From Mycobacterium sp. UM_CSW (GTDB lineage: Bacteria; Actinomycetota; Actinomycetes; Mycobacteriales; Mycobacteriaceae), in NCBI RefSeq assembly GCF_000455205.1, contig NZ_AUWQ01000055.1, forward strand, positions 62,001 through 126,000: a stretch of 64,000 nucleotides of DNA, given 5' to 3'. Position numbers and translations under genes: made by a program. Every line of letters starts with the position of its first letter. Position 1 is the stretch's first letter. The notes below the pieces were generated by a model that saw only the letters and a program-made list of their open reading frames with translations, did not search any database and was not told the DNA's origin. Of the stretch, positions 28,622 through 32,311 are shown piece by piece.

Positions 28622-29155
28622 ATGAAGCGGCTATTACCGGGATTTGCGGTCGTCGGGGCCATGCTGACGTTCCTGCCCAGTCCCGCCGCGTCGGCCGCGA
28701 GCAACGAGGCCACCAGCCTGTTCCCGCTGGACGGCCCCAACCAGCTCGAGACGCACGCCTTCCTCAACTGCATCAGGGCCGACGGCCACTGCGACTTCAC
28801 CGTCGGCGCGGATACCCGCACGCCCGACGGCGTGACCGGGTTCCCGCCGGGCCTGTGGGCCCGCCAGACGACCGAGGTTCGGTCACCGAACCGGCTGGCC
28901 TACCTGGACACCCACGCCAACGGCCAATTCGAAAGGGTCCATAAGGCGATGGGCTCCGACGAGATCACCACCGTCTACTTCGGGGAGGGGCCGCCGGACA
29001 AGTACCAGACGTCCGGCCGCATCGACTCCGCAGACTGGCAGACGGGCCAGTCCAAGACCGATATCAGCGTGATCCTCTGCACCCACATCCAGGTGGTCTA
29101 CGGCGGGGTCAACATCACCTCGCCCAGCACCTGCGCGCAGACCACGTTCTCTTAG
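28622..29155 (+). CDS. Conserved secreted protein (Rv3572-like)
   Basis: 177 residues. The N-terminus is a signal peptide (KRLL, hydrophobic core, cleavage near ASA/AS at about residue 25). The mature part has three cysteines (CIRADGHC and the later CTH) plus one near the C-terminus, so two disulfides are likely. It corresponds in place and length to Rv3572, whose function is unknown. It follows kshB by 28 bases and probably shares its KstR-regulated transcript. An imperfect palindrome begins 16 bases after its stop. Confidence 0.8.
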   Translation: MKRLLPGFAVVGAMLTFLPSPAASAASNEATSLFPLDGPNQLETHAFLNCIRADGHCDFTVGADTRTPDGVTGFPPGLWARQTTEVRSPNRLAYLDTHANGQFERVHKAMGSDEITTVYFGEGPPDKYQTSGRIDSADWQTGQSKTDISVILCTHIQVVYGGVNITSPSTCAQTTFS

Positions 29156-29171
29156 GTTCCCCATCGCCGAA

Positions 29172-29229
29172 CCTGAAAATCTGCAGACAAAGTGCGAGTA
29201 GCGGCCTGCAGAATTACAGGCCCGGCGAA
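29172..29229. repeat. Palindromic direct repeat, copy 1 (left flank of the DUF559 gene)
   Basis: 58 bases matching the copy at 30122-30179 at 53 positions. Within it CCTGAAAATCTGCAG (29172-29186) and CTGCAGAATTACAGG (29206-29220) pair at 13 of 15 positions across a 19-base loop. The stop codon of the DUF559 gene (29214-29216) lies inside the right arm. The hairpin also follows the Rv3572-like gene and could end its transcript. Confidence 0.85.
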
Positions 29230-30101
29230 GCGGGCGAGCTAGGCCGCCAGCCTCGAGCCAGCAGTGCCCGCCTGACGCGCTCGATGATGTCCCCGGGCTC
29301 GTCCTCGGCGATCACGCGAACAACAATCCAGCCCGTTTCGGCGAGCTTTCGTAGTCGCCGCTGATCGTTGACGTACCGACGCCGATCGCTGCGGTGTTGG
29401 TCGCCGTCATACTCGGCGGCCACGCCGAACTCCGGCCAGCCCATGTCGAGCACGGCGAAATACCGGTAGCCCTCGACCACCGGTATCTGGGTGATCGGCG
29501 TGGGAAAGCCCGCGTCGATGAGCAGGAGCCGCAGCCAGGTCTCCTTCGGCGAGGCGGCGCCGCCGTCGACGAGAGACAGCGCGGACCGCAGCCGTCGTAT
29601 CCCGCGGGCGCCGGCGTAGCGCTTGGCGAGCAGCAGCACGTCCTCGATCGAGAACGGCTTTGCACGCATCAGCGCGTCGAGGCGGGCGACCGCCTGCCCG
29701 CGCGGCAGATACCGGCCCAGGTCGTAGGCCGTTCGCGCGGGAGTCGTCACAGGCAATCCCACGACGCGGGTGATTTCGTCGTCGGACAACAGCTGCTCAC
29801 GCGCGACTATCCCCCGCGGTGGCCGCGTGTTCGACCACACCAACTCGATCGGGATGTCGGCGTCGACCCAATTGGCGCCATGTAACGCCGACGCCGCGAC
29901 GCCCGCGACGACCGCCCGGCGCCGCGACCACAACCACGCCACCTCGGTCCTGTGCCGCAACGAAAGTTGTTGACCCCGTGCGGTATACACTCCCGGGAAA
30001 ATGGGATCATACCAACGTTGCAGTTCGTGCCGCGTTATAACTCCCCGCGCGACGGCTTCGCTGCCGATCAACACCCCGGCCATGGCCGAATGGTCGCCCA
30101 T
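29214..30101 (-). CDS. DUF559 endonuclease-like protein with AbiEi-like N-terminus
   Basis: 295 residues from the ATG at 30101; a start at 30083 is also possible. The N-terminal part (about 1-90, with ITRHELQRWYDPIFPGVYTARG) resembles the winged-helix domain of AbiEi-type antitoxin-like proteins. The C-terminal part (about 190-285) is a DUF559/Vsr-like nuclease domain with FGVAAEYDGDQH, an Arg/Asp-rich helix and GWIVVRVIAED. This architecture is common in mycobacteria and its function is not established. The gene sits alone between two genes that are neighbours in M. tuberculosis (Rv3572 and fadE34) and is framed by a 58-base direct repeat, which suggests insertion as a unit. Confidence 0.8.
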   Translation of the reverse strand: MGDHSAMAGVLIGSEAVARGVITRHELQRWYDPIFPGVYTARGQQLSLRHRTEVAWLWSRRRAVVAGVAASALHGANWVDADIPIELVWSNTRPPRGIVAREQLLSDDEITRVVGLPVTTPARTAYDLGRYLPRGQAVARLDALMRAKPFSIEDVLLLAKRYAGARGIRRLRSALSLVDGGAASPKETWLRLLLIDAGFPTPITQIPVVEGYRYFAVLDMGWPEFGVAAEYDGDQHRSDRRRYVNDQRRLRKLAETGWIVVRVIAEDEPGDIIERVRRALLARGWRPSSPASPGL

Positions 30102-30121
30102 GGCACCGACAACTCGCCGAG

Positions 30122-30179
30122 CCTGTAAATCCGCAGCCAAAGTGCGAGTAGCGGCCTGCAGAATTACAGGCTCGACGAA
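30122..30179. repeat. Palindromic direct repeat, copy 2 (right flank of the DUF559 gene)
   Basis: Same orientation as the copy at 29172, offset by 950 bases. CCTGTAAATCCGCAG (30122-30136) and CTGCAGAATTACAGG (30156-30170) pair at 13 of 15 positions. It lies eight bases beyond the fadE34 stop and 21 bases upstream of the DUF559 start, so it may terminate fadE34 transcription while sitting in the DUF559 upstream region. Confidence 0.85.
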
Positions 30180-30187
30180 ATGGGCGC

Positions 30188-32311
30188 CTACCGAGGCAGG
30201 CCGAGAAGCCGCTCCGCGGCGACGGTGAGCAGGATCTGCTCGGTCCCGCCGGCGATGGTGAGGCAGCGGGTGTTGAGGAAGTCGAAGACCGCTCGGTTGC
30301 GGACCAGGCCGCCGCCCTCCGCGACGTCCATCGCGTATTCGGCCAACGCCTGCCGGTAGCGGACGCCGATGAGCTTGCGCACGCTGGACTGCGCGCCGGG
30401 GTCCTGGCCCCCGACCGCGAGCTGGGCGATGCGCTGGTCCAGCAGCGCGCCGACCGCGGCAGTGGCGAGTAAACGGCCAAGCTTGTCTTGCTGAGACACG
30501 TCCAAGTCGATCTCCGCCAGCACTCTGAGCAGTTCTTCCATCGGGTTGCCCAGCGCTGTGCCGGAGGCCATCGCGATCCGCTCGTTGGCCAGGGTGGTGC
30601 GGGCCAGCCGCCAGCCGTCGTTCACCGCGCCGACCACCATCTCGTCGGGGACGAACACGTTGTCCAGGAAGACCTCGTTGAACAGCGAGTCGCCGGTGAT
30701 CTCACGCAGCGGCCGGATCTCGAGGCCCGGCGATTTCATGTCCACCAGGAAGTAAGTGATGCCCTTGTGCTTCGGGGCCTCAGGGTCGGTGCGCGCCAGG
30801 CACACGCCCCACCGCGCCTTGTGCGCGGCGGACGTCCACACCTTCTGCCCGGTGAGCAGCCAGCCGCCCTCGCCACGGACGGCCTTGGTGCGCAGCGACG
30901 CCAGATCCGAGCCGGCCCCCGGCTCGGAAAACAGTTGGCACCAGAGGAATTCGCCGCGCAGGGTGGCCGGCACGAAGCGCTCGACCTGTTCGGGCGTGCC
31001 GTGCTCGAGGATGGTCGGCGCCGCCCACCAGCCGATCACCAGGTCGGGGCGCACCACGCCGGCCGCCGCCATCTCCTGGTCGATCAACAGCTGCTCGGCC
31101 GGGGACGCGCCGCGCCCGTACGGCGGCGGCCAGTGCGGCGCCTGCAGGCCGGCCTCGGCCAGCGCCACCTGCCGCTTTTCTTCGGGCAGCGCGGCCACCT
31201 CGGCGACGGCCGCCGCGATCTCGGGTCGCAGCCCCTCGACCTCGGAGAGATCGATTCCCAGGCGGCGTCGCACCCCCGCCTGCGTCAGCTCGGTGATGCG
31301 GCGCAACCAACGCTCGGCGCCACCCAAGAACCGCCCGATGGCATGCGCCCGGCGCAGGTATAGGTGCGCGTCGTGCTCCCAGGTGCAGCCGATGCCGCCG
31401 AGCACCTGAATGCAGTCCTTCACGTTGGCCTTCGCGGCGGCGATGCCGGTGCTCGCGGCCAGGGCCGCGGCGATCGAGAACTGGGCCGGATCGGGCTCGG
31501 CGGCGGCCCGGGCGGCGTCGGCGGCCACCACCTCGGCCTGCTCGGCGCGGCACAGCATCTCCGCACACAGGTGTTTGACGGCCTGGAAGCTGCCGATCGG
31601 CTTGCCGAACTGCTCGCGCACCTTGGCGTACGCGACCGCGGTGTCCAGCGACCACCGGGTGATGCCGGCGGCCTCGGCCGCCAGGACGGTCGCGGCCAGC
31701 TCCTCGACCCGTTGCTCCGAATCCGCGACGACCGTGACCGGCGCCGACGTCAGCACCACCCGGGCCAGCGGCCGGGAGAAGTCGGCGGCCTGCAGCGGCT
31801 CTAGTTCCACACCCTCGGCGCCGGTGTCGACGAGCAGCCACTTCCCGTCGGCGGGCAGGAGCACGACGGCGCCTTCCGCGGCGCCCAGCGCCCACGGCAG
31901 CGTGCCCGACGCGCGTGACGTCTGGCTGTCGAACCGCACCTCGCCTTCCAGCGCCAACCCGGCGAAACGCTCCCCGGCGGCCAGGGCGGCCAGCAATTCG
32001 GGGTCCTCGACGACAAGGGTGGCCAGGGCCGTGGTGGCAACCGGCCCGGCGACCAGCGCCTTGGCCGCTTCCTCGACCATCGCGCACAGATCCTCGATGC
32101 TGCCGCCCGCCCCGCCGCGGTCCTCCGGGATCGCGACCCCGAACAGCCCCAGGTCGGCCAGGCCCGCGAAGACCGGCCGCCACGCGTCGGGGTTACCCTG
32201 CTCGACCTGGCGGATCGCCGCCGTCCCGCCCGGTCCCGACGTCGAATTACGCGCCCAGTCGCGCACCAGCGCACGCGCGGCGAACTGCTCGTCGGTGACG
32301 GTCGCTACCAC
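30188..32311 (-). CDS. fadE34: Acyl-CoA dehydrogenase FadE34 (fused two-domain)
   Basis: 707 residues, twice a usual subunit, so two acyl-CoA dehydrogenase halves are fused. The N-terminal half carries REQFGKPIGSFQAVKH and GGIGCTWEHDAHLYLRRA, as in FadE33; the C-terminal half carries FSEPGAGSDLASLRTKA and a FadE31-like end (TRCLTIAGGTEQILL). The orthologue Rv3573c (also named ChsE3) dehydrogenates the C24/C22 CoA esters of the steroid side chain. It is divergent from kstR with a perfect KstR palindrome between them. Confidence 0.94.
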   Translation of the reverse strand: MVATVTDEQFAARALVRDWARNSTSGPGGTAAIRQVEQGNPDAWRPVFAGLADLGLFGVAIPEDRGGAGGSIEDLCAMVEEAAKALVAGPVATTALATLVVEDPELLAALAAGERFAGLALEGEVRFDSQTSRASGTLPWALGAAEGAVVLLPADGKWLLVDTGAEGVELEPLQAADFSRPLARVVLTSAPVTVVADSEQRVEELAATVLAAEAAGITRWSLDTAVAYAKVREQFGKPIGSFQAVKHLCAEMLCRAEQAEVVAADAARAAAEPDPAQFSIAAALAASTGIAAAKANVKDCIQVLGGIGCTWEHDAHLYLRRAHAIGRFLGGAERWLRRITELTQAGVRRRLGIDLSEVEGLRPEIAAAVAEVAALPEEKRQVALAEAGLQAPHWPPPYGRGASPAEQLLIDQEMAAAGVVRPDLVIGWWAAPTILEHGTPEQVERFVPATLRGEFLWCQLFSEPGAGSDLASLRTKAVRGEGGWLLTGQKVWTSAAHKARWGVCLARTDPEAPKHKGITYFLVDMKSPGLEIRPLREITGDSLFNEVFLDNVFVPDEMVVGAVNDGWRLARTTLANERIAMASGTALGNPMEELLRVLAEIDLDVSQQDKLGRLLATAAVGALLDQRIAQLAVGGQDPGAQSSVRKLIGVRYRQALAEYAMDVAEGGGLVRNRAVFDFLNTRCLTIAGGTEQILLTVAAERLLGLPR

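Follow-up and report, generated by a model that had tools for sequence, protein, structure and literature searches.

Why does a gene for a DUF559-type protein lie between two similar DNA hairpins in a mycobacterial chromosome? The question is raised by a stretch of 64,000 nt from Mycobacterium sp. UM_CSW (contig NZ_AUWQ01000055.1, positions 62,001 to 126,000; hereafter the window), where such a gene stands between an acyl-CoA dehydrogenase gene and an Rv3572-like open reading frame (ORF). An earlier note on this DNA had seen there a possible mobile cassette. The answer that we favor, with a probability of roughly 0.6, is that the unit is one of a large set in which a DUF559-type gene is paired with its own cognate DNA hairpin, in a manner resembling REPtrons or homing elements and with a different enzyme. 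Mycobacterial and related DUF559-type genes, which code for putative DNA-cutting enzymes, often lie between hairpins specific to their lineage; together they seem to form a so far undescribed partnership of enzyme and palindrome. In the typical layout, two hairpins in direct orientation enclose the gene, and single copies are found elsewhere in the chromosome. In the open-licence literature of PubMed Central, searched at title level, we found no earlier description of such a DUF559-hairpin partnership.

The direct repeat of the window is 73 nt long, with copies 89% identical, in the same orientation and spaced by 950 nt (Table 1). The 58-nt repeat with 53 matches given in the earlier note is real and lies inside this longer one, and the gene coordinates bear out the placement of the DUF559 gene between the copies, with its stop codon inside copy 1. 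Each copy opens with an imperfect hairpin of 66 nt, whose stem of some 22 pairs closes a 19-nt loop that includes AAAGTGCGAGTA. The presence of a hairpin in each copy had been recognized correctly and its size had not: 18 and 19 of 22 positions pair around the loop, rather than 13 of 15. RNA folding of both strands of both copies gave z-scores of -5.2 to -7.7, and no shuffled sequence was equally stable. In the window, a detector requiring at most two loop mismatches and at least 15 of 22 paired positions reported the two bracketing sites and no other, and 640 kb of Markov sequence gave no hit; looser settings gave three to four window sites, plus some false positives. Rfam models gave no match at the gathering score in the window and six loci, and searches with PHROGs and NCBIfam gave no match.

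This arrangement recurs at many other loci. Relatives of the window gene are present in 116 of 118 genomes of the genus (E <= 1e-40, the UM_CSW genome included), mostly several per genome. The sample of DUF559 loci in Mycobacteriaceae leans to the window's relatives; it drew on 30 relatives of the window gene, 38 more hand-picked from the same list, the best 80 of 526, and seven PF04480 matches of the UM_CSW genome. Once two loci had been dropped for short flanks and 16 as near-duplicates, 137 distinct loci were left. At 60 of them, the 5' and 3' sides share a direct repeat whose score exceeds the 99th percentile for pairs taken across loci (chance would give about 1.4), and among these 60 the direct orientation is better than the inverted one in 56. 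For comparison, 1 of 442 control segment pairs from the same loci exceeded the threshold score. Of the 137 genes, 82 have hairpins of the window's loop class nearby; 40 are flanked by them at both ends, and in 32 of these cases the two point the same way. Their density is high at gene ends (122 loop-motif hairpins in 99,737 nt) and low in distal flanks (7 in 309,640 nt). The flanks of the relatives often hold hairpins that combine the window loop with other stems, or that have other loops. Outside the genus, we hand-picked 20 loci from five families, whose reading frames span about 300-380 aa. A usable match was lacking at one, and 14 of the other 19 passed a comparable bracketing test, with different sequences; 12 of the 14 are palindromic by eye, L417 and L426 not clearly so. 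In Tsukamurella tyrosinosolvens, for example, the gene of WP_170181047.1 lies between two closely similar hairpins. The earlier note had proposed looking for other DUF559 genes within such repeats, and they exist widely in Mycobacteriaceae and in the sampled Mycobacteriales. Its expectation that many would carry the same repeat did not hold, as the hairpins differ by gene lineage.

Gene and hairpin vary jointly. For the 40 genes with such hairpins at both ends, stems differ by a mean distance of 0.151 within one gene, compared with 0.451 between genes. Over 74 loci, the distance between stems is correlated with that between proteins (Mantel r 0.517, permutation maximum 0.198). Residues 11-48 track the stem best (r 0.524; 0.414 as a partial correlation given the rest; permutation maximum 0.111), followed by residues 49-182 (r 0.473); the nuclease part reaches 0.330 uncorrected and -0.089 given the rest. 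Since shared ancestry should affect the parts of the protein more evenly, the pattern points to the N-terminal part as the putative reader of the hairpin. Window-type hairpins are more numerous in the 7 genomes where the window gene has a close relative than in the 29 where it has none (Mann-Whitney p 0.0005, uncorrected for relatedness).

Pfam matches to the nuclease part of the window protein are weak (MTES_1575 at E 3e-4 and DUF559 at E 0.03, both below curated cut-offs). A scan of 31 members of the group gave six Pfam families, led by MTES_1575 (30), DUF559 (26) and AbiEi_1 (13), and PADLOC matched the DUF559-type protein to the AbiEi antitoxin. Comparison of a predicted model with known folds was clearer than Pfam, and returned AbiEi and homing-endonuclease/Vsr folds. 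On this model, the window protein is predicted to be an AbiEi-like N-terminal part fused to a Vsr/I-Bth0305I-type nuclease. In the nuclease part, D222, E233, Y234, G236 and H239 are invariant in an alignment of 58 sequences.

Table 1. Features at the bracketed locus, in window positions; the two protein parts are as predicted.
Feature	Positions	Strand	Remarks
Hairpin copy 1, 3' of the DUF559 gene	29164..29229	+	Loop motif AAAGTGCGAGTA at 29189-29200, the gene being on the other strand; repeat runs on to 29236
Hairpin copy 2, 5' of the DUF559 gene	30114..30179	+	Loop motif at 30139-30150, oriented as in copy 1; repeat runs on to 30186
DUF559-type gene, 298 aa	29214..30110	-	GTG start, alternative ATG at 30101 possible; stop codon within copy 1
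AbiEi-like part, residues 8-182	29565..30089	-	
Vsr/I-Bth0305I-type nuclease part, residues 187-288	29247..29552	-	
Rv3572-like flanking gene, 177-aa ORF	28622..29155	+	Convergent with the DUF559 gene; without Pfam match
Acyl-CoA dehydrogenase gene (fadE34-like)	30188..32311	-	Same strand as the DUF559 gene, on its 5' side

The hairpin also occurs away from the gene. BLAST with the window hairpin found eight copies in the UM_CSW genome and matches in 15 of 61 genomes (its own included, all 15 of the same genus), with at most 14 candidates scored per genome. We aligned 52 copies, of which 17 were collected by sequence similarity and 35 by a detector with pairing as a requirement. The loop is conserved in this alignment and the stem covaries strongly: cells with changes on both sides of a pair number 170, compared with 65 after shuffling and 30-47 when the structure is slid. 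A covariance model (E <= 0.01) matches 113 of the 118 genomes, UM_CSW included, with each palindrome counted on both of its strands and the candidates scored per genome limited in number. In UM_CSW, at least 32 matches on both strands resolve to 19 sites. We read 17 of these, mostly with 1.5 kb on each side, and 15 have no DUF559 match nearby, the exceptions being the two window sites. The exact pattern of loop and inner stem has no match in viral contigs. These data suggest that what is dispersed is mainly the hairpin, rather than a gene cassette. Four further solo hairpins of UM_CSW match those of other DUF559 lineages, one of them that of its own L151 gene. Solo hairpins at L199, L201 and L212, in the same genome, resemble those of the L316/L318 lineage; among its DUF559 matches no bracketed gene of that type was seen, and the three are possible orphan hairpins. 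Two uncharacterised stem-loop families of M. tuberculosis, Myt-1 and Myt-8, are named in PMC2267715.

Solo sites differ between species. The best of them, C31, is common to UM_CSW and G017, and seven other aligned genomes, including a sister, have a gap of about 76-78 nt in its place. Site C3 is present in UM_CSW, decayed in G017 and absent from eight other aligned genomes, one more being unalignable. Sites of bracketed genes differ as well. At the site of L155, a DUF559 gene of UM_CSW with another loop class, G140 and G001 carry the bracketed gene, G029 and G036 a single similar hairpin, G062 an internally deleted gene, and G104 a remnant. G075, G082, G007 and G017 have other hairpins there, and that of G017 resembles the hairpin of another DUF559 lineage. 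As a separate observation, the slot of the L155 orthologue is occupied at L371 and L373 (G075, G082), and also at L378 (G007), by a hairpin of the type GCGAGCAGACGCAAAA... / ...TGTCTGCTCGC. Two copies of it were compared with the DUF559-bracketing hairpins of the sample and matched none; it may be a terminator-type repeat. A GCGAGCAGACGC-type hairpin at a second site was likewise considered as a DUF559 hairpin and rejected, matching no bracketing hairpin of the sample.

The junction occupied by the window unit gives some insight into its history (the labels Rv3572 and fadE34 of its neighbors are those of the earlier note). The dehydrogenase was matched in 110 of the 118 genomes, UM_CSW included; 70 junctions were read and one was unusable. 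Among the remaining 69, eight hold the DUF559 gene (UM_CSW included), six a single hairpin without the gene, and 55 neither, the Rv3572-like neighbor not being seen at 20 of these 55. Two hairpins without the gene were found at none of the 69. The single-copy empty sites predicted by the earlier note thus exist at this junction. As refuting results it had named the absence of the repeat from other DUF559 loci, or both copies at junctions lacking the gene; we found neither. The best-matching relative, G075 (dehydrogenase fragment 97% identical), has one hairpin and no gene. Among the eight gene-bearing junctions, two hairpins are seen by the detector in four and by BLAST in G031, and the rest have one; in G086 the second looks truncated. 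When the three states are mapped onto a tree built from 31 dehydrogenase sequences, a minimum of 12 changes is needed, close to the shuffled figure of 12.5. The DUF559 genes of the junction form a single clade (11 rows, SH-aLRT 99) in a quick tree of relatives at least 60% identical, made without bootstrap. Because of this single clade, the gene most simply appears to have come once and to have been lost repeatedly, and we set aside the idea of its frequent movement into the junction; exchange between species there is conceivable. If the two direct hairpins recombined, a single one would stay behind, in agreement with the gene-less junctions that have one. The junction is filled in G132 and bare in its sister G007, where two stop codons overlap in CTAG; this motif lies on each side in G132 and occurs a single time in G007. 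Independently of this, the fadE34 junctions of G124, G001 and G006 (L083, L092 and L098) have another hairpin type, of weak to moderate likeness to the L155 hairpins, and a widened one in G141 (L117) contains a 140-aa ORF that is PIN-domain-like by eye.

Several results weigh against a partnership of gene and hairpin. At 77 of the 137 loci the direct repeat is below the threshold, at 55 a hairpin of the loop class is absent, and over all 137 loci the direct orientation wins 74 times and loses 60 times to the inverted one. Model matches at E <= 0.01 are absent from G036, G083, G085, G087 and G121 despite two to eight DUF559 matches, and G113 and G139 have model matches and no DUF559 match at E <= 1e-40; loop classes missed by the model and orphan hairpins may explain such genomes. 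The correlation between stem and protein is partly due to shared ancestry. The hairpins divide 30 to 47 between replication strands (p 0.07), among the matches listed for the six genomes with a DnaA motif at a contig start, the other seven of 13 having been dropped for want of that motif. The gene at the window junction looks like an old resident. No target-site duplication can be defined there, as the CTAG is also the overlap of the stop codons, and at C31 the letters beside the gap differ too. Only three plasmid or phage records matched at E <= 1e-20 and one at E <= 1e-10, all below 41% identity; related genes being nearly absent from them, plasmids and phages are not the usual route. Finally, in a crude reading, 8 of the 15 solo sites of UM_CSW lie between convergent ORFs, as terminators would.

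This last count is what one would expect if the hairpins were host elements between genes, either transcription terminators or structures of mRNA 3' ends, by which the DUF559 gene is merely flanked, and the filling of the same slots by other hairpins in other species agrees with it. We nevertheless consider this explanation unlikely. The loop-class hairpin is commoner 5' of the gene (74 of 137 loci) than 3' of it (48 of 137), its loop is conserved, and its stem follows the gene lineage and the N-terminal part of the protein, while the GCGAGCAGACGC-type hairpin of one shared slot is unlike any that brackets a DUF559 gene in the sample. Copies viewed with 20-nt flanks show no T run by eye. Mycobacterial terminators can do without one. 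A TRIT terminator model is mentioned in PMC3526491.

Slightly less credit still goes to a true transposon, in which hairpin, gene and hairpin move as a whole by the gene's own nuclease or by an enzyme acting in trans. Paralogues do occupy different loci, many with a bracket of their own, and solo hairpins have been gained or lost between species. At the fadE34 junction, however, the genes are one clade, so changes of site look rare, and the scattered presence is explained by loss; there is no definable target duplication, and no transposase gene adjoins the unit in the window. The mobile cassette of the earlier note therefore survives in part: hairpins are dispersed, whereas the gene entered this junction once, most simply, without hopping in and out. 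Even less probable is an AbiEi-type defence or toxin-antitoxin component with the hairpin as its operator and the other copies as decoys or regulatory sites, since, for all the PADLOC and fold matches to the AbiEi antitoxin and the fact that AbiEi antitoxins bind inverted repeats, there is no AbiEii-like partner next to the gene (at the window locus, the one inspected, its immediate neighbors are the dehydrogenase gene and the Rv3572-like ORF), a nuclease with conserved catalytic residues is fused to it instead, and the hairpin at its 3' end and the dispersed solo copies are left unexplained.

For the partnership of enzyme and hairpin, we infer that the hairpin is bound, cut and spread as follows. 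The AbiEi-like N-terminal part would read the hairpin when it is extruded as a cruciform or single-stranded during replication, and the Vsr-type nuclease part would nick or cut at or beside it. Repair from another place bearing a hairpin would then copy the hairpin to new intergenic sites, and on rare occasions the entire gene with its bracket. Where the bracketing copies recombine with each other, the gene would be removed and a solo hairpin would remain. In a broader form, for which we see an even chance, AbiEi-Vsr fusions that read and cut their own hairpins and seed the chromosome with them would form an order-wide actinobacterial class, selfish or domesticated; this would be a second, independently evolved solution of the REPtron kind and the source of many mycobacterial intergenic palindromes. 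DUF559-type genes thereby gain a specific and testable candidate substrate, the hairpin at their own ends, and the partnership would account for part of the dispersed intergenic palindromes in these genomes. With many natural pairs of reader domain and hairpin at hand, the recognition code could be worked out.

How does the unit compare with known systems? From AbiE, a type IV toxin-antitoxin system, the window locus differs by the lack of an adjoining toxin partner, the fused nuclease, and the hairpin bracket. In IS200/IS605 elements, a gene lies between two hairpins in the same orientation, as it does here. Their enzyme is unrelated to that of the DUF559 units: the Pfam scan of 31 members contains no match to a Y1/HuH transposase model, and these units give no evidence of autonomous transposition. 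With homing endonuclease elements, they share the predicted fold of the nuclease part, and the gene-less junctions with one hairpin are candidate empty sites, although those at fadE34 are most simply losses. Compared with I-Bth0305I, no intron is seen, the part that would read DNA is another one, and the presumed target is a multi-copy hairpin. As presented in PMC8266576, a REPtron (TnpA_REP/RAYT) consists of an enzyme gene beside its own palindromes, with many dispersed intergenic copies, co-variation of enzyme and palindrome, and a gene that rarely moves. DUF559 units differ in several ways: a predicted AbiEi-Vsr fusion takes the place of the HuH tyrosine transposase, the hairpins measure about 66 nt and mostly point the same way at the two ends of the gene, a genome has several lineages, and the consensus of the 52 hairpins lacks a GTAG-type tag. 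They do not qualify as REPtrons by enzyme or tag, and they agree in the dispersed palindromes with a gene beside some of them and in the co-variation of enzyme and palindrome, which makes the REPtron the closest functional likeness. If cutting is confirmed, an unrelated class of enzymes would join the few known bacterial partnerships between an enzyme and a palindrome.
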